Source: Candidatus Cloacimonadota bacterium (GTDB taxonomy: Bacteria; Cloacimonadota; Cloacimonadia; JGIOTU-2). From it: 43,177 nt of DNA. Shown here in pieces: positions 23,444 to 38,620 of the stretch. How positions within the stretch are numbered: position 1 is the stretch's first letter; each line of letters starts with the position of its first letter. The DNA lies in NCBI GenBank assembly GCA_030613025.1, contig JAUWMT010000019.1, forward strand, positions 1 through 43,177, written 5' to 3'. Position numbers and translations under genes: made by a program. Under the pieces are notes generated by a model. That model was not told the DNA's origin. It was given only the letters and a program-made list of their open reading frames with translations, and did not search any database.

Positions 23444-23733
23444 ATTATATCCTTTATTTATCTGCAAAATATTCGTAACCAACAAAACATGTCAACAGAT
23501 ATATTTATTTTGTATCCGTAAAATATCTTTAAATTGTGATCATTTAAATTACGTTTTCACTGACCGTAAGGCGGATAACTTCAGACAAAATGCGGGACTA
23601 TTAGGAATTATATAGATATAAACTGAGATAAATAAAATTTTTTCAACAATCGATATTTACGAAAACCTCAATTTAATTGACAAACAAATCATCTTGCGAA
23701 ATTGCTCATTCAGTTCAAATCAAGGAAAATGAA
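23444..23733. promoter_or_regulatory. Divergent promoter region between fic and the sensor kinase
   Basis: These 290 bases should hold both promoters. A TTGACA occurs at 23677-23682 but no good -10 is placed after it. No sigma-54 consensus was found here. No repeat family of the window is present. Confidence 0.4.
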
Positions 23734-25257
23734 ATGATCGCTCGAATACAAAGTATATTAAAAAAAATGATCAAGCTTTCCAAACAAAAGACTGAGCATT
23801 TGGAATTCGTCCGCGCTGTTCATGAGCTTTTTGCTGAAGAATTGGATATTCGGGAATCAATCTTCATTCTGGCTATCGACAGCTACTTTTTAAAAAGTTC
23901 ATACAGTACTGAACCGGAAGAATATTGGGATATTCGCACTAATGAACTGCGGGATGAAGACCGGTTTTCCCGATTGGTAGATATCGTTCTTAAAGAAATA
24001 AATTTTGACCCGGATTCTGACATTAGGATCGAGATATATAATTGCGATGTTACAATTGGATACATCATTGCCCGAAATGTTGATGCCAGCAGTGATGTGA
24101 TTGAAATATTCGAAGAGATCAAAGACTTCTTCTTCCTGATCTGCATGTCGATCTATCGCCAGTTTCAATTGAATGAACGAGTGAAAGAATTGAGCTGTTT
24201 GCACAGTATCAGCAAAATTGCCGAGAATACCGATCTCAGTATTTCAGAATTTCTTACTGAGATTGTTAACCTGCTCCCACCCGCTTTGCAATTTTCCGCA
24301 CAAGCTAGTGCTCGCATCGTCTACAATGACCAATCATTCCAGACTGATAAATTCTCAGAAGGTGAGCGCTCACTAAATGCTCCTATAGTATTAGGCAAAA
24401 CTAAAACTGGTTTTGTAGAAGTGAGTTATCCGAAGGATTTGACATTGCCGAACAGCTATCCATTCTTGAAAGAAGAAGAGCATCTTATTAGCATCATTGC
24501 GCAGGAATTGAGCATTACACTGGAAAAGAAAAAGGCTGAAAAAGAAAGCCAGCACTTGGAGAAACAACTTCGCCATGCCGACAGATTGGCGACGTTGGGA
24601 CAGCTCTCTGCTGGCATAGCCCACGAGATCAATGAGCCTCTTGCCGGAATCCTGGGGTTGGCTCAATTGATGGAGAAAAATGAAAGCCTCGATGAGCAAG
24701 CTCTATCTGATTTGGAAAATATTGTATCAGCATCTCTACATGCGCGTGAAGTTGTAAAAAAACTTATGCTTTTTGCCCGCCAGATGCCATCTTCTCAAAC
24801 CAACCTAAATTTGAATGAAGCAGTTAATAATGCCGTCTTTTTTTTAGAATCACGCTGTCGCAAGAATTTAGTGAAGATCACACTCGCTCTGAAAAAAGGT
24901 ATTCCCTGTATTAAAGCAGATTCTTCCCAGATTCACCAAGTACTCATTAACCTGATCGTGAATGCTCTGCAAGCTATGCCCGATGGCGGTATCATTAGCA
25001 TTAAAACTTATTTCGATACTGAACTTGTTTTTCTGGAATGCAGGGATACTGGCATTGGCATGAGCAAAAGTGTACTTAGCCAGATATTCAATCCTTTTTT
25101 CACGACCAAAAAAGTGAATGAAGGAACCGGTCTTGGATTATCAGTGGTGCATGGGATTATATACTCACACGGTGGTGAAATAAAAGTGACCAGTCAGCCG
25201 GGCAAGGGGACAAAATTCTTGATAACATTTCCTCACGCATTAAAGGAAGGTTCATAA
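23734..25257 (+). CDS. NtrB-like sensor histidine kinase with GAF-like input domain
   Basis: The 507-residue kinase has no membrane segments and is probably cytoplasmic. Residues about 1-145 are an unrecognised input region. A GAF-like domain follows (about 147-266; NERVKELSCLHSI...LLPPALQF...PFLKEEEHLISIIAQEL), then a coiled coil, then the H-box SAGIAHEINEPLAGILG (His297). The ATPase domain has NLIVNALQAM, DTGIGM and GTGLGLSVVHGI. The H-box is of the NtrB/AtoS type. ATG 23734 has AAGGA 7 bases upstream; a TTG at 23677 is rejected. Its stop overlaps the regulator start by one base. The GAF-like domain is shared with the protein at 29976. Confidence 0.92.
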   Translation: MIARIQSILKKMIKLSKQKTEHLEFVRAVHELFAEELDIRESIFILAIDSYFLKSSYSTEPEEYWDIRTNELRDEDRFSRLVDIVLKEINFDPDSDIRIEIYNCDVTIGYIIARNVDASSDVIEIFEEIKDFFFLICMSIYRQFQLNERVKELSCLHSISKIAENTDLSISEFLTEIVNLLPPALQFSAQASARIVYNDQSFQTDKFSEGERSLNAPIVLGKTKTGFVEVSYPKDLTLPNSYPFLKEEEHLISIIAQELSITLEKKKAEKESQHLEKQLRHADRLATLGQLSAGIAHEINEPLAGILGLAQLMEKNESLDEQALSDLENIVSASLHAREVVKKLMLFARQMPSSQTNLNLNEAVNNAVFFLESRCRKNLVKITLALKKGIPCIKADSSQIHQVLINLIVNALQAMPDGGIISIKTYFDTELVFLECRDTGIGMSKSVLSQIFNPFFTTKKVNEGTGLGLSVVHGIIYSHGGEIKVTSQPGKGTKFLITFPHALKEGS

Positions 25258-26591
25258 TGAAAAATAAAAGAATTCTTGTTTTGGATGATTATGATCTCAC
25301 CCGGGATGTGATAAAGCGCAATCTAGCTGCGAATGGTTACCAGCTTTATACAGCCGGAAATTTTGAGCTGGCGAAAGAGATACTTAAGGAAATCGATCTC
25401 GATCTGGTGATTACCGATCTTAAAATGCCTGATATCAGTGGATTGGATGTAATAACTTATATTACTGAAAATTTCAAAGATGTGGAAATAATTGTTATCA
25501 CCGGTTATCCCACTATTACTTCTGCAGTGGATGCCGTCAAACTTGGTGCTGATGATTACTTAACAAAACCATTTACGGATGTGGAACTTTTAGCAGCAGT
25601 GAAGAAAACCCTGGAAAAACAGGAAAATAAGCGGGAATTTAACAGGGAAATTTCAGATGGATTCGGTGAAAAATTCGGGATTATAGGTAATTCTGAAAAA
25701 ATGCTGGAAGTGTTCAAAACTATTAAAAAAGCTTCCGAGATAAACAGCACAGTATTGATAACCGGCGAGAGCGGAACGGGAAAAGAATTAGTAGCCCGAG
25801 CGATTCATTATACTGGCTTCAGAGCAGCAGCACCTTTTGTTCCCATAAATTGTGGCGCTATACCCGAAACACTTTTAGAAAGCGAACTATTTGGTTATGT
25901 TAAAGGAGCTTTTACCGGTGCTCATACCACACGTAACGGTTTTTTCATAAGTGCAAACAAAGGCACGATTTTTCTGGATGAAATATCTGAAACTTCCATG
26001 ATGCTTCAGATCAAACTTCTACGCGTGATTCAGGAAAAAGAAGTTTACAGGGTCGGTTCAGCCGAAGTTCAGAAAGTGGATGTTCGAATTCTCGTGGCTT
26101 CCAATAAAGATCTGCATGGATTGGTAGAACTGGGTAAATTCAGGGAAGACCTTTTCTATCGTTTGAATGTTCTCACTGTCAATATCCCTCCTTTGCGGGA
26201 ACGAGGTACAGATATTTTCCAGCTTGCCAATTATTTTGCCAATAAATATGCAAGTGAATTCGATAAAAAAATTCTTTCCTTCAACGATGAAGTGCTGGAT
26301 ATTTTGGGAAAATATAACTGGCCCGGTAATGTGCGTGAATTGGAAAACCTGGTTCATCGTTTGGTGATAATGAATGAAGATGGAAATATCCGCAAAGCTG
26401 ATCTGCCTGTCTTTATGAAATCCCGGATCAACAGCGTGAGCGATGTGAAAAGAACCCTGCAAGAAGTCGAGATCGAGCACATCAAAAACGTGCTGGAATA
26501 TACAAACAATAATAAATCAAAAGCATCTGAAATTTTACGAATCGATCGTAAAACGTTAAATAATAAACTCAATCAAGATCGTAACGAGTAA
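25257..26591 (+). CDS. NtrC-family sigma-54-dependent response regulator
   Basis: The 444-residue activator has a receiver domain (acceptor Asp54 in VITDLKMPD, Thr82, Lys104), an AAA+ domain with Walker A GESGTGKE (170-177), the sigma-54 contact loop GAFTGA (217-222) and Walker B TIFLDEI, and a Fis-type helix-turn-helix at the C-terminus (SKASEILRIDRKTLNNKL). It is coupled to the kinase by a one-base overlap (TAATG) with an AAGG site. The intact GAFTGA implies true sigma-54 activation. The most obvious target is the sigma-54 promoter 231 bases downstream, before the dehydrogenase operon. Confidence 0.95.
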   Translation: MKNKRILVLDDYDLTRDVIKRNLAANGYQLYTAGNFELAKEILKEIDLDLVITDLKMPDISGLDVITYITENFKDVEIIVITGYPTITSAVDAVKLGADDYLTKPFTDVELLAAVKKTLEKQENKREFNREISDGFGEKFGIIGNSEKMLEVFKTIKKASEINSTVLITGESGTGKELVARAIHYTGFRAAAPFVPINCGAIPETLLESELFGYVKGAFTGAHTTRNGFFISANKGTIFLDEISETSMMLQIKLLRVIQEKEVYRVGSAEVQKVDVRILVASNKDLHGLVELGKFREDLFYRLNVLTVNIPPLRERGTDIFQLANYFANKYASEFDKKILSFNDEVLDILGKYNWPGNVRELENLVHRLVIMNEDGNIRKADLPVFMKSRINSVSDVKRTLQEVEIEHIKNVLEYTNNNKSKASEILRIDRKTLNNKLNQDRNE

Positions 26592-26821: not shown

Positions 26822-26838
26822 TTGGCACACAAATTGCA
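26822..26838 (+). promoter_or_regulatory. Sigma-54 promoter (-24/-12) of the glutamate dehydrogenase operon
   Basis: TTGGCAC-N5-TTGCA with GG at 26824-26825 and GC at 26836-26837, exactly the 10-base spacing required. Transcription would start near 26848, giving a leader of about 32 bases with AGGAG at 26871-26875. The gene just upstream encodes a sigma-54 activator. Confidence 0.85.
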
Positions 26839-26880: not shown

Positions 26881-28164
26881 ATGGATAAGTCTTTCAATGC
26901 ATTTAAAATGGCACAAGATCAGTTTGATGCTGTTGCTGACAAATTAAACCTGAATGAAGCATCAAGAGAACTCTTGAGAACTCCAATGCGGGAATATCAT
27001 TTTACTATTCCTGTCAAAATGGACGATGGAACCTCCAAAGTTTTTCGTGGATTTCGCATTCAGCATAATGATGCCATAGGACCATGCAAAGGTGGAATTC
27101 GATTCCATCCGCAGGAAACTGTTGATACAGTTCGTGCACTTTCCATGTGGATGACATGGAAAACAGCGGTTGTGGATATTCCGCTGGGTGGCAGTAAAGG
27201 TGGAGTGATCTGCGATCCGCATAATCTTTCAGCCAGAGAACAAGAACAGATCTGCCGCGGCTGGATTCGCCAACTTCACAGAAATGTAGGTCCGCTGCGC
27301 GATATTCCCGCTCCTGACGTGATGACCAATGGACAGCACATGCTGTGGATGCTTGACGAATATGAAACGATCACTGGCGAAAAATATCCGGGAATGATCA
27401 CAGGGAAACCTGTTGGAATGGGTGGTTCACTTGGTAGAACTGAAGCTACCGGTTATGGAGTTATTTTTACTGTTCGTGAAGCTCTGAAAGAAATGAACCT
27501 CACTATCGAGAACACAACAGCTTCATTCCAGGGATTCGGTAATGTTTCACAATATGCAATCAAGCTATATGACCAACTTGGCGGGAAATCACTCTGTGTT
27601 TCTTGTTGGGATCAGCAGGATCAAACATCCTACTCTTTCCATAAAAAAGCGGGTATCGATATCGATGAACTGTTAAGTATCACCGATCACTTTGGTGGAA
27701 TCGACAAAGCAAAAGCGAAAGAACTTGGTTATGACGTACTCACAGGTGATAAATGGATCGAAGTGGAATGCGACATCTTAGTTCCTGCAGCTTTGGAAAA
27801 TCAAATCACTGCTGCAAATGTTAATAAGATAAGTTCGAAAGTAAAACTAATTGCAGAAGGAGCCAATGGACCCACTACACCGGAAGCCGACGAAGTGCTA
27901 AAAGAGCGCGGCATTTTCATTATTCCGGATTTCCTGTGCAATGCCGGCGGAGTTACCTGCAGCTACTTTGAGCAGGTTCAATGCAATATGAATTATTTCT
28001 GGAGCAAAGACGAAGTTCTTGGAAAACTCGATTACAAAATGACTACTGCGTATCATAAGGTTTCCAAACTCGCAAGAGAAAAGAGACTATATATGCGTGA
28101 CGCAGCTTATATGATCTCTGTCGACAGAGTTATACGAGCCTCTGTTGCCAGGGGTTGGATATAG
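26881..28164 (+). CDS. gdhA: Glutamate dehydrogenase (Glu/Leu/Phe/Val dehydrogenase family)
   Basis: The 427-residue enzyme interconverts glutamate with 2-oxoglutarate and ammonia using NAD(P). The dimerisation/substrate domain shows FRGFRIQHNDAIGPCKGGIRFHP (Lys70) and WKTAVVDIPLGGSKGG with the active-site lysines, then RDIPAPDVMTNG. The nucleotide-binding domain has FQGFGNVSQYAIKL. End motif GGVTCSYFEQVQ is normal. The length fits hexameric bacterial enzymes. Substrate preference for Glu over other amino acids is likely but not certain. AGGAG precedes the ATG by 5 bases. It is the first gene after the sigma-54 promoter. Confidence 0.93.
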   Translation: MDKSFNAFKMAQDQFDAVADKLNLNEASRELLRTPMREYHFTIPVKMDDGTSKVFRGFRIQHNDAIGPCKGGIRFHPQETVDTVRALSMWMTWKTAVVDIPLGGSKGGVICDPHNLSAREQEQICRGWIRQLHRNVGPLRDIPAPDVMTNGQHMLWMLDEYETITGEKYPGMITGKPVGMGGSLGRTEATGYGVIFTVREALKEMNLTIENTTASFQGFGNVSQYAIKLYDQLGGKSLCVSCWDQQDQTSYSFHKKAGIDIDELLSITDHFGGIDKAKAKELGYDVLTGDKWIEVECDILVPAALENQITAANVNKISSKVKLIAEGANGPTTPEADEVLKERGIFIIPDFLCNAGGVTCSYFEQVQCNMNYFWSKDEVLGKLDYKMTTAYHKVSKLAREKRLYMRDAAYMISVDRVIRASVARGWI

Positions 28165-28233: not shown

Positions 28234-29979
28234 ATGAAAAGCGGACAAAAATTCGAGCGGGAAACCGGGTTCTTTCATGATGGTTTTACCTATATAGGAA
28301 CTGGTTTGCCAGGTGGTAAAGCATCGGGATTGGCTTTATCTCATAATATTTTGAAGAAACATTTTCCAGAAGGTGATATTGAAGGAATGCAGGTAAACAT
28401 ACCCCACACAACCGTTTTACTTAGTGGAGTGTTCGATACATTTATGAAAGAAAATAATCTGTATAAAATTTCTCTTTCAGATGCTTCTGATGATGAAATT
28501 GCCATCAGCTTCATAAATGCGTCCTTTGGCGGCTTATATTCCGGTGATCTGTTTTATCTGATTGAAAATGTTGATAAACCATTGGCAGTACGTTCCTCAA
28601 GCATTTGCGAAGATTCTTTGAACGAACCATTTGCCGGATTTTATGAAACCAAAATGGTGGCAAATAATCAGTTAAACAGTGCAGACAAATACAATGCGTT
28701 GATCAATGCCATCAAATATGTGTATGCTTCACTTTTCTTTCAACAGTCCAAGAAATATTTCCGAACCATTAATCGTGATATTTGCCAGGAAAAGATGGCT
28801 GTTATTATTCAAGAAGTTGTGGGTGATCGTTATGGAGAGAACTTTTTTCCGTATATTTCCGGTGTGCTGAAATCCTATAATTTCTATCCTTCCGAACAGA
28901 TCGAACCGGATGCTGGTTTTGCTGCTTTGGCTTTTGGTTTGGGTAAAACGATCGTTGACGGCTCAACTTGCTGGAGCTACTGTCCGCGTTATCCTCGCAC
29001 TCCTCAGCCCTTCAATAACATGAAAGATATGCTGAACAATACCCAGAAAGAATATTGGGCTGTGAATCTGGGGAAGATCAATAATTACAATCCTGTGGCT
29101 GAAACCGAATACCTGGCACATAATTCCATTTTCGATATCCGGGACAGAAGTCTGCTCAAACATATCTGTTCCACTTATGATCACATCAATGATCGTCTTA
29201 TAATGGGAGTGCAGAATTATGGGGCTCCGGTTCTGGATTTTGCTCCTACTTTACGGGCTGAAACTTTACCTTTGAATACTGTGATAAACCAGATAATAAA
29301 GGTATGTGAAGATGAAACAAACAGCAAAGTAGAAATAGAATTTGCTGTATCTTTGGGCACAACAAAAGATCCTCAACCACGATTTGGCTTCTTACAATTA
29401 CGACCTATTAACATATCAAATGAGATTATCGATTTGCCGGAAATCACTGATAGTTCAGACGAGGTTTTGCTTTCTTCAAAAAAAGTGATGGGTAACGGTA
29501 TATCTAACGACATCTGTGATATTGTTTACATTCGTCCAGAAAATTTCAATACTCAATACACCAATCAGATAGCTGCTGACATCGCCGAATTTAATGCCAT
29601 TTTCACTGCCAATAAACGTAAATATATGTTGATAGGATTTGGACGCTGGGGGACTTCCGATCCGTGGTGTGGAATTCCGGTGCAATGGCCACAGATTTCC
29701 AACGCCAAAATAATCGTTGAAACCGTTCTGCCCAGCATGAGAGCAGATTTCAGCCAGGGCGCACACTTCTTTCACAACATGACTGCTCACAATGTATTCT
29801 ATTTTTCTGTGGATAAGGAAGATGCAAAAAATCTTGACTGGAATTGGATTCAGCAGCAGAAAACAATAAACGAAACGAAATTCGTGAAGCACGTTAAATT
29901 GAAACAAAGTCTGAAAGTGTTGGTCGATGGCAGGCACAGCAATGGTGTGATCATGAAGAATGAAGATAATAAACAATGA
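28234..29979 (+). CDS. Stand-alone PEP-synthase-type ATP-grasp protein (PPDK_N-like), no phosphohistidine domain
   Basis: The 581-residue product matches the nucleotide-binding half of PEP synthase/PPDK: LPGGKASGLALS (Lys29), KPLAVRSSSICEDS (Arg120), MAVIIQEVVGDRYGENFFPY and EIEFAVSL...FLQLRPI (to about 391). The swivelling His domain (GGxTxHA motif) and the PEP/pyruvate barrel are missing. In their place is a module of about 150 residues (YMLIGFGRWGTSDPW...SQGAHFFHNM, about 460-525) also found in the protein at 29976. So it is not a complete PEP synthase. It may phosphorylate another partner or bind nucleotide for regulation; this is inference. AAGGAA precedes the ATG. It overlaps the next gene by 4 bases. 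Confidence 0.85.
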   Translation: MKSGQKFERETGFFHDGFTYIGTGLPGGKASGLALSHNILKKHFPEGDIEGMQVNIPHTTVLLSGVFDTFMKENNLYKISLSDASDDEIAISFINASFGGLYSGDLFYLIENVDKPLAVRSSSICEDSLNEPFAGFYETKMVANNQLNSADKYNALINAIKYVYASLFFQQSKKYFRTINRDICQEKMAVIIQEVVGDRYGENFFPYISGVLKSYNFYPSEQIEPDAGFAALAFGLGKTIVDGSTCWSYCPRYPRTPQPFNNMKDMLNNTQKEYWAVNLGKINNYNPVAETEYLAHNSIFDIRDRSLLKHICSTYDHINDRLIMGVQNYGAPVLDFAPTLRAETLPLNTVINQIIKVCEDETNSKVEIEFAVSLGTTKDPQPRFGFLQLRPINISNEIIDLPEITDSSDEVLLSSKKVMGNGISNDICDIVYIRPENFNTQYTNQIAADIAEFNAIFTANKRKYMLIGFGRWGTSDPWCGIPVQWPQISNAKIIVETVLPSMRADFSQGAHFFHNMTAHNVFYFSVDKEDAKNLDWNWIQQQKTINETKFVKHVKLKQSLKVLVDGRHSNGVIMKNEDNKQ

Positions 29980-32900
29980 ACACAATCGAAGAAAATTCAA
30001 AAAGATTAATTGAAAGCCTGAAAGAAAGACAAAAAGAGCTTGATTGTATTCATGGGCTGGAAAGTATTTTAACTGATTTCGATCAACCTCTGGAAAAAAT
30101 ATTTCAGAGGATTTTGGATATTCTGCCCAACGGCTGGCAATTTCCCAATATATGCTTTGCCGAAATCGAATACTATGATAAGATTTACAAAAATTCCAAA
30201 TCACCCGACACAGAATATGTACAAAAATCTCCCCTGCACAAAAACAATATTCATTTCGGGGAAATCAGGATCTATTATACCGACGTTCCGCCTGAGCTTC
30301 ATCATAACCCTTTTCTCAAGGAAGAATACTCTCTTTTAAACACTGTTGCAAGCATCCTGGCTTCCTATCTCGCAGTGCGTTCATACAGGGAAAACACACC
30401 CATCTCAGCACATCGGGGTGAATGGAAAGTTATCATCAATATGTTGCAAAAAACGGATATAAAGCTTTTTTTGCGCATAGCTAGGAAACTGTTGAATCTG
30501 CTTTATCAAAAAGGAATCAAAGAAGTAAAATCGATCTATGCATCCTTTGGTGCCACTACCCGGGATTCCCAAATAGATTTGAGTTCTGAGGTCAATGTTC
30601 CGCTCAAAAAAAGGGATTACAAGGAAACTATTAAATTAAGCGATCAGATATTCGAAATTGCTGATCAACATTTTTCCGATGAAGAATTAATGGATTACAT
30701 CCGCAAATGGATGCAGGAATATAAATTGAATTTCCTAATTATTTCTCTGGAAAGTAAGGATACAACACTGTCTGAACTGCAGGACGCAATTTTCCATTAT
30801 CACAGCCAAGAAATCGATAAAGAAAGCCTCTCTCCTTATGCTTATATGAATGTGAAAGTGCTACTCATTCAGAAGTTATTCACCAATCAACTGGAATTCA
30901 TCAATGTTGTTAAAAACTATATAGAAATTGATGATTTTTATGAAGTATTGCAGCATACTATTTTTCCCAGTAATTCACATGGTAAGCTGGGAGGGAAAAG
31001 CACCGGGCTTTTTTTTGCAAATAATATTATTAAAAGCGAAATAGACGAGGATTTCAGCAAAAACATCAAAATACCCCAGACATGGTATATTACTTCAGAT
31101 GCGATGCTTAACTTCCTGCATTATAATAATTTGGAAGAAATCATTGAACAGAAATACAAAGATATTGAGAGCGTGCGAGCGGAATATGGCAATATCATCC
31201 AGATGTTTAAAAATTCACATTTCCCACAGGATATATCCAAAGGATTATCTCAATTCTTGGATATATTAGGTGACAAGCCGATCATTGTGCGCAGTTCTTC
31301 TCTTTTGGAAGACAGCTACGGTGCTGTTTTTTCCGGAAAATATAAAAGCTTGTTCCTGGCTAACCAGGGAAATAAAGAGGAGTGCTTGAATGCTTTGCAG
31401 GATGCTATTGCTGAAGTGTACGCTTCCATTGTCGGACCTGATCCGATCGAATACCGTAAGGAACGCGGTCTTCTGGATTTTAAAGAAGAAATGGCGATCA
31501 TGATCCAGGAAGTGGTCGGAACAAAATGCGGCAAATACTTTTTCCCAGCTTTTGCGGGAGTTGCTTTTTCCAATAACGAATTCCGGTGGTCGTCAAGCGT
31601 AAAGAGAGATGACGGACTGGTACGAATGGTGCCAGGTATGGGAACGCGTGCCGTGGATAGGTTGAGCAATGATTATCCTGTCCTGGTATCTCCCGGAAAA
31701 CCAGGTACCAGGGTAAATGCCACTACCGAAGAAATTTTGAAATACAGCCCCAAGAATATCGATCTGATCAACCTGGAAACAAATTCTTTCGAAACGATGC
31801 CAATCAGAGAAGTTATAAAGGAATGCAAAGAGCAATTTCCACTTTACCAACAATTGTTTTCGGTTTACGAAGATAAATATATCGTCGAAAAATCCGGATT
31901 CAATATCGATTTTGAAAACGATGACCTGATCGTCACATTCAATGGTTTGATCAACAATTCTTCTTTTTTGAAAAGGATAAAAAAGATTTTAGAGATACTG
32001 AAATCAAAATTGGATACTCCAGTCGATATCGAATTCGCTGTGAAAGATGATGACTTTTACCTTTTGCAGTGCCGTCCGCAGAGTTTTTCCAGTGTCGATG
32101 AGCCACAACCAATTCCACAGGATATTCCCAGTAAAGACGTTTTGTTCACAGCACACAAATATATTTCCAATGGTTACATTCCGGAGATTTCTTATATGGT
32201 TTATGTAGATCCGGAAAAATACAGTGATTTGCAGACTATCGATGAACTGCACAAAGTAGGACTTTGCATCGGAAGGTTGAATATGTTACTTCCCAAAAAG
32301 AAATTTATCCTGCTTGGACCGGGTCGTTGGGGTAGTAAAGGTGATATTAAATTGGGTGTGAACGTAACATATTCGGACATTAATAAAACTGCTGTTCTCA
32401 TCGAGATAGCAAAGGAAAAGGGAAATTATGTTCCCGATCTTTCGTTTGGGACACATTTTTTCCAGGATTTAGTGGAAGCACAGATCCGTTATATTCCACT
32501 CTATCCGGATGAAAAAGATAACATATTCAATACAAGTTTCTTTCGATTTTCTAAAAATATCCTGCCAGACATCCTTCCTGATTTTGTCGATCTGATCGAT
32601 TGTGTAAAAGTGATAGATATTCCCGCTGAAACTGATGGCAGAATACTGAAAATATTTATGAATGCCGATCTGGATGAAGCAATTGGATATGTTGGTGTAC
32701 CGGGTATAAGCAGAGACTACATCTTAAGTCAGCCCGAAAGTTATGACACAGGTGTCGAAAATTATTGGTATTGGCGCATGCAAGTATGCGAGTTTCTGGC
32801 ACAAAATATCGAAGCGGAAAATCTGGGCGTGGAAGCTCTTTATGTTTTTGGTAGTGTGAAAAATGCTAATGCGGGTCCAGCCAGCGATATCGACCTGCTG

Positions 32901-33125
32901 GTTCACTTTCGGGGAGATGAGATACAAAGAAAAGAACTTGTTGCCTGGTTGGATGGTTGGAGTATTTGCCTGGATTATTCCAACTACCTTAAGACCGGTT
33001 ATAAGACCGGAGGACTGTTGGATGTGCATATCATCACGGATGAAGATATCGAGAATAAAACCAGTTACGCCATTAAGATCAACGCTGTTACCGATGCAGC
33101 CAGAAAACTGGATATGAGGAAATGA
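29976..33125 (+). CDS. GAF-like / PPDK_N ATP-grasp / nucleotidyltransferase fusion protein
   Basis: The 1049-residue protein appears cytoplasmic. Domains: GAF-like (about 16-135; KERQKELDCIHGL...ILPNGWQF...PFLKEEYSLLNTVASIL), which resembles the input domain of the kinase at 23734; an unrecognised region (150-330); PPDK_N ATP-grasp (336-705; KLGGKSTGLFFAN, KPIIVRSSSLLEDSYGAVFSGKY, DIEFAVKDDDFYLLQCRP); the shared module (775-840; FILLGPGRWGSKGD...SFGTHFFQDL); and a C-terminal Pol-beta-type nucleotidyltransferase (950-1025; YVFGSVKNANAGPASDIDLLV with Asp971/Asp973, third Asp in GLLDVHII). No His-swivel or PEP barrel is present. Inference: a nucleotide-dependent regulator, perhaps modifying a protein as GlnD/GlnE do. 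Both ends overlap neighbours by 4 bases. Confidence 0.85.
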   Translation: MNTIEENSKRLIESLKERQKELDCIHGLESILTDFDQPLEKIFQRILDILPNGWQFPNICFAEIEYYDKIYKNSKSPDTEYVQKSPLHKNNIHFGEIRIYYTDVPPELHHNPFLKEEYSLLNTVASILASYLAVRSYRENTPISAHRGEWKVIINMLQKTDIKLFLRIARKLLNLLYQKGIKEVKSIYASFGATTRDSQIDLSSEVNVPLKKRDYKETIKLSDQIFEIADQHFSDEELMDYIRKWMQEYKLNFLIISLESKDTTLSELQDAIFHYHSQEIDKESLSPYAYMNVKVLLIQKLFTNQLEFINVVKNYIEIDDFYEVLQHTIFPSNSHGKLGGKSTGLFFANNIIKSEIDEDFSKNIKIPQTWYITSDAMLNFLHYNNLEEIIEQKYKDIESVRAEYGNIIQMFKNSHFPQDISKGLSQFLDILGDKPIIVRSSSLLEDSYGAVFSGKYKSLFLANQGNKEECLNALQDAIAEVYASIVGPDPIEYRKERGLLDFKEEMAIMIQEVVGTKCGKYFFPAFAGVAFSNNEFRWSSSVKRDDGLVRMVPGMGTRAVDRLSNDYPVLVSPGKPGTRVNATTEEILKYSPKNIDLINLETNSFETMPIREVIKECKEQFPLYQQLFSVYEDKYIVEKSGFNIDFENDDLIVTFNGLINNSSFLKRIKKILEILKSKLDTPVDIEFAVKDDDFYLLQCRPQSFSSVDEPQPIPQDIPSKDVLFTAHKYISNGYIPEISYMVYVDPEKYSDLQTIDELHKVGLCIGRLNMLLPKKKFILLGPGRWGSKGDIKLGVNVTYSDINKTAVLIEIAKEKGNYVPDLSFGTHFFQDLVEAQIRYIPLYPDEKDNIFNTSFFRFSKNILPDILPDFVDLIDCVKVIDIPAETDGRILKIFMNADLDEAIGYVGVPGISRDYILSQPESYDTGVENYWYWRMQVCEFLAQNIEAENLGVEALYVFGSVKNANAGPASDIDLLVHFRGDEIQRKELVAWLDGWSICLDYSNYLKTGYKTGGLLDVHIITDEDIENKTSYAIKINAVTDAARKLDMRK

Positions 33126-33985
33126 TTCCGGCTCTCTTCACCAGCGATTTGCATGGCTCAAAAAAGAAGTATGAATTTCTCTTTGATAAAATTCTAACCA
33201 TCAAACCTGCTGTTGTTTTCCTTGGGGGAGACATGATGGGCTTTGCCGTAAAATTACAAAGCGTTGCAATTCCTACCGGTGAAGACTTTTTGTACGATTA
33301 CCTGGCAATGAATCTACAATTAATCAGAGATGAATTGAAAAATGAATATCCGGTAATTTTTGTGATACTGGGAAATGATGACCCCAAAAGACATGAAGCT
33401 GCTTTGCTGGATATTTCAACCACTAATCTTCTCACATATGTTAATGAACAAAAAGCCAACTTCCAAGCTTATAACGTAATCGGCTATTCCTATGTACCTC
33501 CAACTCCTTTTTTAAATAAGGATTGGGAAAAATATGATGTTTCTCGCTTTGTGGATGTGGGTTGTGTTTCTCCAGAAGCAGGTTATCGCAGTATTCCTGT
33601 TTCAGTTGACGAACTTCGTTTTTTTACAATTAAGCGTGATTTGGAAAAACTTTTTGCTGATGTAGATCTCTCCAGAACGATTTGTCTTTTTCATTCTCCT
33701 CCCTACAAAACCAAGCTTGATCGAGCTGCCCTGGATGGTGTGCTGGTCGATCATGCGCTACTGGATGTGCATGTGGGCAGTATAGCCATCAAAGAATTCA
33801 TCCTTACAAGATCCCCGTATCTCACTTTGCATGGTCATATTCATGAATCATCCCGTATTACAGGCAATTGGAAGGAAAAAATCGGAGATACGATCTGCTT
33901 TCAGGGAGCAACGGAGCGAGATGAGAACGGTATCATCCTTTTTGATTTGGATGATCCGAATACAGCAGAGATGCTCAAAGAATGA
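33122..33985 (+). CDS. Calcineurin-like metallophosphoesterase
   Basis: The 287-residue product has the metal motifs in order: SDLHG (Asp9, His11), GGDMMG (Asp37), GNDD (85-87, where most members have GNHD or GNHE), FHSPP (His191) and HGHIHE (238-241). It could be a phosphodiesterase or phosphatase; the substrate is unknown. It is the last gene of the gdhA operon and overlaps the fusion gene by 4 bases (ATGA). Given the neighbouring nucleotidyltransferase, removal of a nucleotide modification is possible but is inference. It converges on rsmE with a 28-base gap and no clear terminator. Confidence 0.88.
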   Translation: MIPALFTSDLHGSKKKYEFLFDKILTIKPAVVFLGGDMMGFAVKLQSVAIPTGEDFLYDYLAMNLQLIRDELKNEYPVIFVILGNDDPKRHEAALLDISTTNLLTYVNEQKANFQAYNVIGYSYVPPTPFLNKDWEKYDVSRFVDVGCVSPEAGYRSIPVSVDELRFFTIKRDLEKLFADVDLSRTICLFHSPPYKTKLDRAALDGVLVDHALLDVHVGSIAIKEFILTRSPYLTLHGHIHESSRITGNWKEKIGDTICFQGATERDENGIILFDLDDPNTAEMLKE

Positions 33986-34013: not shown

Positions 34014-34745
34014 TTAATAAAATTTAGGATTTTTCCCCAACTGATAAAAAATCGTATTTGCAGCAATTGTGATCGCGGCAGTTTCTGCTCTCAGAATATG
34101 ATTTCCCAGCGAAACGATCTGTGCTGAGTGTTCTCTTGCAAAATCTACTTCTTGCTTTACAAAGCCACCTTCGGGTCCAATTATTAGACAAATATCTTTA
34201 TCAGCATGTTCAAGTACCTCATGAAGTCCGTGCCGGTCTTCTTCTTCCCAAGCAAGAACAGGATAGTAATTTTGGGATAAATTTTTAAGTAATTCCCCGA
34301 AAGCAAGCGGCTTATGAATTTGAGGTAAATGAGTTGAATCACATTGTTTGAGCGCAGCGATTGCGACTTTTTCAAGTCTTCCAAACTGGTGAGTAGAAAG
34401 AGATGTTTTTACATTCCTTTCTGCAAAAAATGGGAAAAATTCATAAATACCGAGCTCGGTACATTTTTCGATAATCAGTTCATTATGCTGTTTCAATAGG
34501 GAAAATGCCAGTGCAATATGTGGATGGGATTTCTCTTTTTTGTCGATCCTTTCAATTTGCAGGATTATTTCTCGGGGTGAAAGTTCTTTTATAATGCATT
34601 CTGCCAGTAGCCCGTTTCCGTTTGTTATGAGAAGAGTATCCCCAACTCTTTTTCTTAGTGTATTTTTTATATGTTTGAATTCTGTATCTGATATTGTGAT
34701 TTCTTTTGTTGTTGCAGTTAGATCCGGTATGTAGAAAATTGGCAT
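34014..34745 (-). CDS. rsmE: 16S rRNA (uracil1498-N3)-methyltransferase
   Basis: The 243-residue SPOUT-class enzyme methylates U1498 of 16S rRNA using SAM. It has an N-terminal PUA-like part (HIKNTLRKRVGDTLLITNGNG) and the C-terminal knot with the family motif LIIGPEGGFVKQEVDFA and LGNHILRAETAAI. It begins 15 bases after dnaJ, so it is the last gene of the heat-shock operon, an arrangement known from other bacteria. Confidence 0.95.
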   Translation of the reverse strand: MPIFYIPDLTATTKEITISDTEFKHIKNTLRKRVGDTLLITNGNGLLAECIIKELSPREIILQIERIDKKEKSHPHIALAFSLLKQHNELIIEKCTELGIYEFFPFFAERNVKTSLSTHQFGRLEKVAIAALKQCDSTHLPQIHKPLAFGELLKNLSQNYYPVLAWEEEDRHGLHEVLEHADKDICLIIGPEGGFVKQEVDFAREHSAQIVSLGNHILRAETAAITIAANTIFYQLGKNPKFY

Positions 34746-34760
34746 TTACATCAAATTGAA

Positions 34761-35924
34761 TTAGACAAAATAGTCTTTGATCTTATCAAAAAATGATCTG
34801 CCGGGTTTGAGATTTCTCTTTTCGTCAAAAGGAGCGATCTTGGTGTACAATTCCTTCTCTTCGCTGGAAAGTTTATTGGGGATGACCACAATAATTTTCA
34901 CATAAAGATCACCTTTTCTGTTGCTGTTCAGATGGGGTAAACCCTGACTGCGCAATCTGAAAACCTTTCCGGATTGTGTGCCGGAAGGTATCTTCATCTT
35001 GGCATGACCTTTCAGTGTGGGCACTTCTGCGGTGTTACCAAGTACTGCGTCAGTTATGGTGATAGGGAAAGTGCAGATAAGGTCCTGTCCATCTCTGTCA
35101 AAGAGGTCGTTTCTCTTTTCCCTGATATAAACTAGTATATCACCTGGAGGACCGCCCTGTTTGCCTGCGTGACCCTGTCCGCGGAGATTAAGATATTGTC
35201 CGTCAGAAACCCCTGCAGGGATCTCGACTTTTATAGTTTTAACTGAGGAAATTCTGCCTTCTCCATTACATTTAGAGCATTTATTCTGGATGCTCTGACC
35301 TGTTCCGTTACACACAGGACAGGTTGTGATGGTTGACATCGCTCCGAATGGGGATTGACGCACCTGTTTGACTCTTCCTGAACCACCGCATTGGCGGCAG
35401 GTTGCAACTTTTCCATCTGCCGATCCGGTTCCGTTACATGCATCACATTTTTGCTTTATATTTACTTTCAGCCGTTTGGTAACTCCCTTAGCAATTTCTT
35501 CCAAACTAAGAGAAAGCGATATCTTCAAATCTCCACCACGATTTACCATGCGTTGGCGTGGTTGTCCCCCAAAACCAAATCCTCCTCCACCTCCTCCAAA
35601 GAAGGTTTCAAAAATACTGCCAATATCTCCAAAGATGTCTGAAAAATCATTTGCATGAGTGAAATTATCCCAGGTAAATCCACCGCTTCCAAAAGCACCT
35701 TCAAGTCCTGCATGTCCGAATTGGTCATACTTTTTACGCTTATCGTTATCGCTCAAAACTTCGTATGCCTCAGATGCTTCTTTGAATTTTTCATCAGCTG
35801 CTTTATCATCTTTGTTCTTGTCAGGATGATATTTCAATGCCAGTTTTCTGTAAGAGCTTTTTATCTCGCTTTGGGAAGCGCTTTTATCCACACCGAGTAT
35901 TTCGTAGTAATCTCTCTTTGCCAT
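34761..35924 (-). CDS. dnaJ: Chaperone DnaJ (type I Hsp40)
   Basis: The 387-residue co-chaperone stimulates the DnaK ATPase. It has a J domain with HPD ([16 protein letters not shown], about 32-47), a Gly/Phe-rich linker ([14 protein letters not shown]), four zinc CxxCxGxG repeats ([32 protein letters not shown], about 160-220) and a C-terminal substrate-binding region ([22 protein letters not shown]). It is complete. The ribosome site is weak. Confidence 0.97.
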
Positions 35925-35953
35925 TTTCTATTTCTAACCTTCTTTATTGATAC

Positions 35954-35985
35954 GCACGGGAACTGCGAATGTGCAATTCCCGCGC
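35954..35985 (-). promoter_or_regulatory. Hairpin in the dnaK-dnaJ gap
   Basis: 13-bp arms (GCACGGGAACTGC / GCAATTCCCGCGC) with two G-T type pairs and a 6-base loop, in the 78-base gap before dnaJ. No T-run. It may protect dnaK mRNA or lower dnaJ read-through. Confidence 0.55.
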
Positions 35986-36002
35986 ATGAATTATTAAATG
36001 TT

Positions 36003-37958
36003 TTATTTATCTTCTTCGTCATCAACAACTTCGAAATCAGCATCCACTGCATCGTCATCAGATGGTTCTTGCTGGGACTCAGTCTGTTGCTGCTGACCTT
36101 GCTCCTGATCACCTGCCTGCTCTTGTTGCTCTTGTTTCTGTTGCTTCATGGTTTCCTGATACACGATCTCACCGAGTTTCTGAGCTTTCTGTTCGAAATC
36201 GGTTTTTGCCTGCTTCAGCACTTCAACATCTTGAGAATCAAGTTTTTCTTTGGCAGCTTTGATCGCTTCTTCAATCTCTGCTTTTTCATTATCTTTCAGC
36301 TTATCGCTGTATTCTTTGAGGGATTTCTCTGTGCTGAAGATCATAGTGTCAAGATGGTTGCGAAGTTCAACAAGCTCTTTGAATTTTTGATCTTCCTGTG
36401 CATGCTCTTCTGCTTCTTTGACCATTTTATCGATCTCATCCTCGGAAAGTGCACCGGACTTGTCGATCTTGATCTGTTGTTTTTTACCGGTTCCTTTATC
36501 CAATGCAGAAACATGGAGAATACCATTTGCATCGATGTCAAAAGAAACTTCGATCTGCGGAAGTCCACGTGGTGAAGGAGGTATGCCGACAAGGTCAAAC
36601 CTGCCAAGCGTTCTGTTCTGCGTAGCCATATCACGTTCGCCTTGCAGCACATTGATGGAAACTGCGGTCTGATTATCTGCAGCAGTTGAGAATATCTGGC
36701 TCTTCTTCACAGGTATTGTGGTATTTCTATCGATGAGTCTGGTCATCACGCCACCAAGCGTCTCGATTCCAAGAGATAGGGGAGTGACATCGAGAAGGAG
36801 AATGTCTTTCAAGTCTTCATCACCGGAGAGAATTCCACCTTGAATCGATGCGCCGATCGCAACAACTTCATCAGGATTCACGCTCTTATTTGGCTCTTTC
36901 TTGAAGAAATTCTTCACAGCTTCCTGAACGGCAGGAACTCGTGTCGAACCACCAACAAGTATAATTTCATCGATCTCGGACACATCGAGTTTGGCGTCTT
37001 TTACCGCGGCTTTACAAGGTGTGATACTTCTTTCTATGAGGTCGTCGATCATTCTGTTGAATTCAGAACGAGACAGGTTCAAAGAAAGGTGTTTCGGTCC
37101 ACTGCTGTCTGCTGTAATGTAGGGAATATTGATATTTGTAGACTGGGTTCCGCTCAATTCGACCTTGGCTTTTTCTGCAGCTTCACGAATTCTCTGCATC
37201 GCCATAGGATCCTTTGAGATATCAATGCCATCGCTTTTTTTGAATTCACTCACGACCCAATCGATGATCTTTTTATCAAAATCATCGCCACCAAGATGGG
37301 TATCTCCATTTGTGGAGAGCACTTCAACTACGCCTTCGCCAATTTCCAGGATAGAGATATCAAAGGTACCACCGCCGAAGTCATACACAGCGATCTTTTC
37401 ATCTTTTTTCTTTTCGAGTCCATATGCGAGCGCTGCTGCAGTTGGTTCATTGATAATACGGGCAACTTCCAAACCTGCGATCTTGCCTGCGTCTTTTGTT
37501 GCCTGTCTTTGGGCATCATTGAAGTATGCGGGTACTGTGATAACAGCTTTATCAACTTTGGTGCCGAGGTATTCTTCGGCAGTTTCCTTCATCTTTTTAA
37601 GGATGAATGCAGAAATTTCCTGAGGTGTGAAATCCTTTTTCTGATTGGGGATCTCGATTATCACTTCACCCTTGCTGTCAGCTTTAATTTTGAAGCTTAC
37701 TTCGGATTCTTCTGTCTTTACTTCATTAACTTTTCGACCCATAAAACGTTTTACCGAGTAAACCGTGTTCATGGGATTTGTAACTAATTGATGTTTTGCT
37801 AATTGACCAACCAATACTTCGCCGTCTTTGGTGAAACCAACCACAGATGGGGTGGTTCTTCCACCTTCTGAGTTTGGTATGACAGTGGGTTTTCCACCTT
37901 CCATGACTGCAACACAACTGTTGGTCGTTCCTAAGTCTATTCCTATTATTTTACTCAT
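36003..37958 (-). CDS. dnaK: Chaperone DnaK (Hsp70)
   Basis: The 651-residue chaperone has the ATPase domain ([18 protein letters not shown]; phosphate motifs [15 protein letters not shown] and [14 protein letters not shown]), a substrate-binding domain ([19 protein letters not shown]) and a C-terminal lid with a Gln-rich tail ([10 protein letters not shown]) ending in the usual acidic EEDK. Length is typical. AAGGAG precedes the ATG. Confidence 0.98.
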
Positions 37959-37990
37959 TGTGATACTCCTTGAGTTTTTATTTTTTAAAT

Positions 37991-38620
37991 TTATTTATTT
38001 TTATTTTTTTTCTTTTTCTTATTAGAATTTATCTCGATCTTCTCACCTTCATCTTCGGGCATTTCCTGATCTTCATCGATGGATTCTTCGGGAGCTTTTG
38101 CCACTGCAACACGAGCAGGACGGAGCACTTTATCATTAAGAATATAGCCACTCTGTATGCAATCGAAAATTATATTATCATCAAATCCTTCTTTGGGAGT
38201 GCAAACGAGAGCTTGATGATATTGAGGATCGAATTCTGTTCCCACAGCTTCTATTCGCCTCAGCCCGTATTTCTTTAGCAAATCTTTAAGCTGATCATGA
38301 ACCATAACAATACCTTTGCGGAAGTTTTCAGGAACCTGATCGGTATCTGCAGATTTAATTGCCAGCTCGAGATGTTCATACACATTTATGAGTTCCAGAA
38401 TGAGATCTTTATTTGCATTCTTGATCCAATCAATTCTGTCTTTTTCATTGCGTCTGCGGAAGTTTTCAAATTCTGCTGCCGCACGTAACCATCGGTCTTT
38501 GTAGGAAGCTGCTTCTTCTTGAAGTTTTTCAATTTCCTCTTCAAGCATTTCTATCTTCGTTTTTTCATATTCATTATTCATGTCGTTTTCTGTTTCAATA
38601 TCTTTTTTCTTTTTAGTCAT
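37991..38620 (-). CDS. grpE: Nucleotide exchange factor GrpE
   Basis: The 209-residue factor releases ADP from DnaK. It has a long N-terminal coiled coil ([38 protein letters not shown]) and the C-terminal beta domain ([30 protein letters not shown]). A very Lys-rich tail ([10 protein letters not shown]) ends it. TAGGAG precedes the ATG. It is 32 bases from dnaK. A mosaic repeat block separates it from hrcA. Confidence 0.96.

Follow-up and report, generated by a model that had tools for sequence, protein, structure and literature searches.

What do two ATP-grasp proteins do that are encoded directly behind a glutamate dehydrogenase (GDH) gene and carry, in place of the phosphohistidine swivel domain and the domain binding phosphoenolpyruvate (PEP) or pyruvate, a conserved module of another kind? 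The two, here called P1 and P2, lie in a contig of 43,177 nucleotides from a Candidatus Cloacimonadota bacterium (JAUWMT010000019.1, assembly GCA_030613025.1), the whole of which is the window of this analysis, and the module had been pointed out in an earlier note made from the letters of this DNA. We find that it is an undescribed domain, as far as the family and structure libraries searched (Pfam, PDB and BFVD) reach, and that it occurs in three ATP-grasp clades tied to GDH, which is new here: those of P1, of P2, and of a form of ~990 amino acids (aa) with two receiver domains. Judged from sequence and from their recurrent place beside GDH across many bacterial and archaeal phyla, the module genes probably belong to a little-known control system for GDH, a central nitrogen enzyme, and we would give an even chance to the fuller reading that the module is a real domain always placed after an intact PPDK_N domain and that its carriers are signal-responsive, ATP-using modulators of GDH activity. 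The genes and domains at issue are:

26881..28164, forward strand: GDH (Pfam ELFV_dehydrog, E 5.7e-72)
28234..29979, forward strand: P1, PPDK_N ATP-grasp plus module, 581 aa (open reading frame; AlphaFold2 pLDDT 88.0)
28312..29424, forward strand: PPDK_N ATP-grasp domain of P1, aa 27-397 (Pfam, E 4.8e-28)
29443..29967, forward strand: module of P1, undescribed domain, aa 404-578, ~175 residues (alignment A3; AlphaFold2 of the module alone)
29635..29652, forward strand: GFGRWG motif of P1, aa 468-473, with invariant R471 (motif search, alignment)
29764..29766, forward strand: invariant His511 of P1 in DFSQGAHFF, at a helix start (motif search, alignment, AlphaFold2)
29976..33125, forward strand: P2, GAF-like N-terminus, PPDK_N, module and nucleotidyltransferase, 1049 aa (open reading frame, Pfam)
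30984..32123, forward strand: PPDK_N ATP-grasp domain of P2, aa 337-716 (Pfam, E 1.1e-60)
32115..32660, forward strand: module of P2, the same undescribed domain (alignments A2 and A3; match to the A3 profile, E 1e-39)
32316..32333, forward strand: GPGRWG motif of P2, aa 781-786 (motif search)
32454..32456, forward strand: invariant His827 of P2 in DLSFGTHFF (motif search)

The earlier note had read GRWG and, about 41-44 residues later, D-x-S-x-G-x-HFF after the PPDK_N part of both proteins. Both motifs are present, the second as DFSQGAHFF in P1 and DLSFGTHFF in P2, and the spacing from GxGRWG to HFF is 41 residues in P1 and 44 in P2; the motif positions within the span proposed for the module, 29610-32500, hold, but its extent does not, the module being larger in each protein (29443-29967 and 32115-32660). 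Because P1 and P2 align through the ATP-grasp domain and the module alike (30% identity across the whole of PPDK_N and module, E 8.5e-39), the shared motif reflects common descent and not chance, and its recurrence with matching spacing in dozens of relatives, together with the homology of the two modules, argues the same.

In the full-length proteins Pfam sees one further domain behind PPDK_N, the nucleotidyltransferase that closes P2. When isolated, the modules of P1 and P2 had no Pfam match even at E<=5, and a profile of 67 relatives compared with PDB sequences gave nothing beyond chance (best E 0.023, a longin). AlphaFold2 modelled the module alone as a compact alpha/beta domain (pLDDT 91.5, pTM 0.90) with His511 in the first turn of a helix, and Foldseek with the module alone returned nothing passing E 0.001 in either PDB (best 0.067) or BFVD (best 0.026). 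These searches uphold the proposal of a candidate undescribed domain. The second half of the module gave longin-like matches (VAMP7, E 0.02-0.06), which are not significant and were unseen by the fold search, and Foldseek matches to arginase, the CPS small subunit and PA domains, all with TM <=0.3, were taken as noise.

Neither P1 nor P2 has a Pfam match to PF00391 (PEP-utilizers) or to a PEP/pyruvate-binding domain, both sequences lack GGx[TS]xH, and P1 ends right after the module, with no C-terminal PEP/pyruvate-binding TIM barrel; the module that follows PPDK_N does stand where the phosphohistidine and PEP domains would be, and the GGxTxHA swivel motif is gone, as the note had it. A known swivel domain, the identification that the note had named as fatal to its proposal, was ruled out by Pfam (no match), by Foldseek (no match) and by hhalign, in which the module aligned to swivel domains from the same bacterial group with a probability of 0.2%. 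That the module instead descends, very remotely, from the phosphohistidine swivel is highly improbable in our judgement: it fills the swivel's functional slot, and the local pattern is similar, with a His at a helix start after a small Ser/Thr-Gly loop (SQG[ST]HFF vs GGxTSHA), a small residue before the His and a strand ~10 residues on, but the hhalign probability speaks against it, as does the Foldseek search with the high-confidence model, which placed no EI, PPDK or PEPS swivel among the top 50 PDB matches and nothing under E 0.067. A stand-alone swivel protein acting in trans on P1 or P2 was likewise looked for in the genome and rejected: its PF00391 proteins are two, on other contigs, with open frames of 911 and 586 aa, and are apparently PPDK and enzyme I of the phosphotransferase system.

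The ATP-grasp part is of a known kind. With PF01326 scores of 98.8 bits (P1) and 206.2 bits (P2) against a gathering cut-off of 27, both proteins belong to the family, and K29, R120, E369, Q388 and R390 are invariant in every alignment row covering them. By their position in the sequence, K29 and R120 are probably equivalent to Lys22 and Arg117 of rifampin phosphotransferase (RPH), whose mutation abolishes activity (PMC4844700). Foldseek with the full P1 model found PPDK_N proteins only (RPH, PEPS, HpeI and PPDK), the best structural match of the ATP-grasp domain being the RPH-type 5hv1 (E 4.6e-14), with HpeI 9goj at E 2.2e-9. P1 and P2 thus resemble PEP synthase and PPDK (PpsA, PPDK) in a PPDK_N ATP-grasp with its conserved Lys, Arg, Glu, Gln and Arg, but differ from them in lacking the swivel (PF00391) and the PEP/pyruvate-binding domain and in carrying an unrelated module after the ATP-grasp. 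P1 also shares an RPH-type ATP-grasp with RPH and with the two-component dikinases HpeHI, CreHI and phenylphosphate synthase; those enzymes, however, use a GGxxxH-type swivel (His825 in RPH, His581 in HpeH), which here is supplied neither by P1 or P2 nor by a neighbour.

How far is the module conserved, and does its histidine hold? The 68 relatives of alignment A2 show no variation at R471, G470, G473, G480, E496, S507, H511 and F513, and hardly any at N454, D476, Q508 and N515. Because some relatives (L063-L142) had been collected with a pattern that itself contains HFF, their His conservation alone was set aside as biased, and the residue was retested on proteins found through the whole of P1 or P2, or through the ATP-grasp part only, without that pattern. 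The arrangement GxGRxG...SxGxHF, including the His, is kept in 78 of the 79 unique module proteins of this second set, and the invariance of H511 and H827 claimed by the note is therefore found with either collection. The sole exception (L029), in which the module is split over separate matches, looks frame-broken, probably by a frameshift; it comes from a same-genus genome without a P1-type GDH. Across 75 genomes of the phylum, long open frames contain the module only behind PPDK_N, and four shorter module frames (114, 183, 326 and 493 aa) are probably fragments, although not each was checked. This pattern of conservation bears on the proposal that the module performs no chemistry. On that view the ATP-grasp would sense adenylates, and the module would bind GDH as an allosteric or chaperone domain, its conserved residues making contact with a ligand or with the partner. 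The GDH linkage and the regulatory architecture described below would suit such a sensor, but none of the catalytic-type residues of the ATP-grasp varies and the module's invariant charged and polar cluster (R, D, E, S, H, N) is more like an active site, and we consider the proposal unlikely.

The link to GDH goes beyond the earlier note, as do the relatives with receiver domains. Other phyla supplied 24 P1-type loci whose flanks are long enough to judge (two of them, L073 and L093, may be near-copies); a GDH gene lies 13-344 bp upstream in 22, and these pairs come from Calditrichota, Planctomycetota, Eisenbacteria, Ignavibacteriota, Chloroflexota, Acidobacteriota, Spirochaetota and others. 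Three further P1-type loci, L176, L181 and L183, which were found without recourse to HFF, also have GDH. For the family as a whole, a GDH-family gene lies within ~6 kb in 48 of 80 loci, against an expectation of about one, which is our own estimate from two GDH-family genes in a 2.8-Mb genome. Among the 75 genomes of the phylum, the P1-linked type of GDH, P1 and P2 are each present in 15, and these are the same 15 (including G038, whose P2 is cut by a contig end and was seen in a separate search), a co-occurrence that does not amount to 15 independent events because the genomes are related. The linked dehydrogenases fall into two GDH subfamilies by NCBIfam, one accompanying P1 and the other, the hexameric NADP type, going chiefly with the receiver form; by the names of the NCBIfam models, we take the P1-linked enzyme to be of NAD type and the receiver-linked one of NADP type. 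The nearest NCBIfam model to the GDH of the window is GdhA_Arch, with a score below that model's cut-off. No paper on PPDK-GDH neighbourhoods was found in the literature searched.

In a maximum-likelihood tree, the P1-type and P2-type proteins each form a group with 100% support, set off from a larger group with N-terminal receivers, and P1 nests within the receiver-bearing group. Members of the latter are ~990 aa long; their first receiver lacks its Asp and the second is intact (E181/D182, D251 in 26 of 26, K304). Earlier surveys list response regulators of a REC-PPDK type for Bacteroides and Heimdallarchaeota (PMC5847659) and count PPDK among the effectors of aspartate-less receivers (PMC4395418). 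The ~990-aa relatives apparently share this architecture, their two receivers being an aspartate-less one and an intact one. The relevant portions of the surveys mention neither a module at the C-terminus nor a tie to GDH; P1 also differs in having no receivers, and P2 in having GAF-like and nucleotidyltransferase parts instead, Pfam finding no receiver domain in either protein of the window. Both the ATP-grasp part and the architecture of the REC-PPDK type are known already. The conserved module, taken as a domain of its own, and the GDH tie of its family are new, neither having been found in the libraries and literature searched.

The receiver form also occurs in the window's own genome, as a third paralog on contig C95 (L002). 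This third module protein and the genome's second GDH end at contig edges, on C95 (1-600) and C19 (1-1700) of G000 (loci L269 and L268); their orientations would fit adjacency, but no sequence overlap joins the two contigs. A Methanomassiliicoccales archaeal contig (L095) brings together GDH, one protein of the receiver form, one of P2 type and a calcineurin-like phosphoesterase (MPE) of the kind that follows P2, which looks like an intermediate between the two arrangements.

In Bacteroides the receiver form is near-universal: it is present in 78 of 81 species, single-copy and 80-100% identical, a few of the 78 matches being fragments or split. Fourteen of the 20 Bacteroides examined have a GDH within ~5 kb of it, and it is often near gdhA without being co-directional with it; in two loci (L245 and L251) gdhA is convergent, 94 bp downstream. 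Five Bacteroides loci (L236, L245, L247, L248 and L251) have the receiver-PPDK_N-module gene between two GDH genes, with gdhA at its 3' side and the other at its 5' side. The title of a 1996 paper by Baggio and Morrison, a reference in PMC4539542, states that trans-acting gene(s) downstream of gdhA affect GdhA activity. The receiver-form gene, which is 3 kb long and in several Bacteroides species lies convergent just downstream of gdhA, is a candidate for this B. thetaiotaomicron factor, offered as a lead. A 3-kb downstream fragment is reported to have restored activity in trans in E. coli, a size that the receiver-form gene fits. The 1996 study reportedly saw GdhA activity affected in trans while transcription was kept, which would also suit a partner protein of the non-catalytic kind. 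The factor is not known to have been assigned to a protein. GDH joins carbon and nitrogen metabolism, and the family proposed here is near-universal in a genus of major gut bacteria, is tied to GDH in many other phyla, supplies a specific candidate for the 1996 factor, and carries a domain absent from the libraries searched.

Could GDH be a pathway partner rather than a target? P1 and its relatives would then be small-molecule dikinases that treat glutamate or 2-oxoglutarate the way PEP synthase treats pyruvate, by phosphorylating or activating it, and the module would serve as substrate-binding and acceptor domain. Known PPDK_N enzymes do act on rifampin, phenols and hydroxyphenylethanones (PMC4844700, PMC12167813), and the operon linkage to a metabolic enzyme is strong. 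The receiver, GAF and nucleotidyltransferase attachments, however, look regulatory, and the family follows two GDH subfamilies and in Bacteroides often lacks a common direction with gdhA, so that we rate the dikinase, too, as unlikely.

For GDH modulation by the module proteins, the sequences themselves show that the domain exists and is conserved, that the ATP-grasp residues are intact, that receiver, GAF and nucleotidyltransferase parts are attached, and that the genes are linked to GDH; from these points we infer a possible course of events. The ATP-grasp part would cleave ATP in the manner of PEP synthase or RPH, and H511 or H827, with R471, D476, E496, S507 and N515, would accept or handle a phosphoryl group, replacing the missing swivel domain. 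The phosphoryl group, or a conformational signal, would then alter GDH activity under the control of the receivers or, in P2, of the GAF-like and nucleotidyltransferase parts; the nucleotidyltransferase and MPE may add or remove a further modification, MPE being a possible reversing enzyme. In its boldest version, which we regard as doubtful, a new catalytic domain other than a swivel has its own invariant His phosphorylated by a PPDK-type ATP-grasp and drives reversible covalent control of GDH across many phyla and nearly all Bacteroides, explaining the 1996 GdhA factor. Several points weigh against GDH modulation: outside Bacteroides, roughly half of the loci with the receiver form have no GDH within 6 kb, and some Bacteroides lack one nearby as well; neighbourhood is no proof that GDH is the target, as co-regulation would look similar; an invariant H511 would be expected of a structural or ligand residue as well as of a phosphoacceptor; and the 1996 observation cannot be mapped here to the receiver-form gene.

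What signal might reach the operon of the window? Around GDH, P1 and P2 stand the following features:

23677..25257, forward strand: sensor histidine kinase, GAF-type (Pfam HisKA, HATPase_c)
25257..26591, forward strand: NtrC-family response regulator, receiver, sigma-54 activator and HTH_8 (Pfam)
26823..26837, forward strand: sigma-54 -24/-12 promoter ahead of GDH, TGGCACACAAATTGC (sole zero-mismatch match in the 43-kb window)
32676..33122, forward strand: nucleotidyltransferase of P2, NTP_transf_2, with GS-x-SDID and LLDVH motifs (Pfam, E 1.4e-7)
33122..33985, forward strand: MPE, calcineurin-like phosphoesterase overlapping the end of P2 (Pfam Metallophos, E 2.5e-8)

The order is thus sensor kinase, NtrC-type regulator, sigma-54 site, GDH, P1, P2 and MPE; 69 bp separate GDH from P1, and stop and start codons overlap at P1/P2 (as ATGA) and at P2/MPE. 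A sigma-54 element, exact or one base off, stands at the matching position upstream of GDH in 8 of 13 relatives, and none that convinced us was seen upstream of GDH in other phyla. With a GAF histidine kinase and an NtrC-type regulator encoded ahead of it, the sigma-54 promoter is probably a nitrogen-control switch, and the GAF-like part of the sensor kinase resembles the P2 N-terminus by sequence cross-similarity.

The C-terminal part of P2 has the motifs of a minimal-type nucleotidyltransferase (PF01909), GS-x(n)-D-x-D and a third Asp, as VFGSVKNANAGPASDIDLLV and LLDVHIIT, and is kept in most P2 relatives of other phyla. By analogy only, such a domain in the operon of a nitrogen enzyme, downstream of an NtrC-type regulator, recalls the nitrogen-control nucleotidyltransferases GlnE and GlnD, from which P2 differs in domain architecture. 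Two P2-type nucleotidyltransferases (L067 and L073) are possibly inactive, because the second Asp of their DxD is replaced by Asn (SDIN). Relatives of MPE lie close to P1 or P2 in 9 of 80 loci. A phage or defence origin of the locus was considered and set aside, PHROGs and PADLOC having given just weak nucleotidyltransferase and phosphoesterase matches. Beyond MPE, at 34014-38620 on the minus strand and convergent with the GDH operon, lie the chaperone genes grpE-dnaK-dnaJ, followed by an RNA methyltransferase gene.

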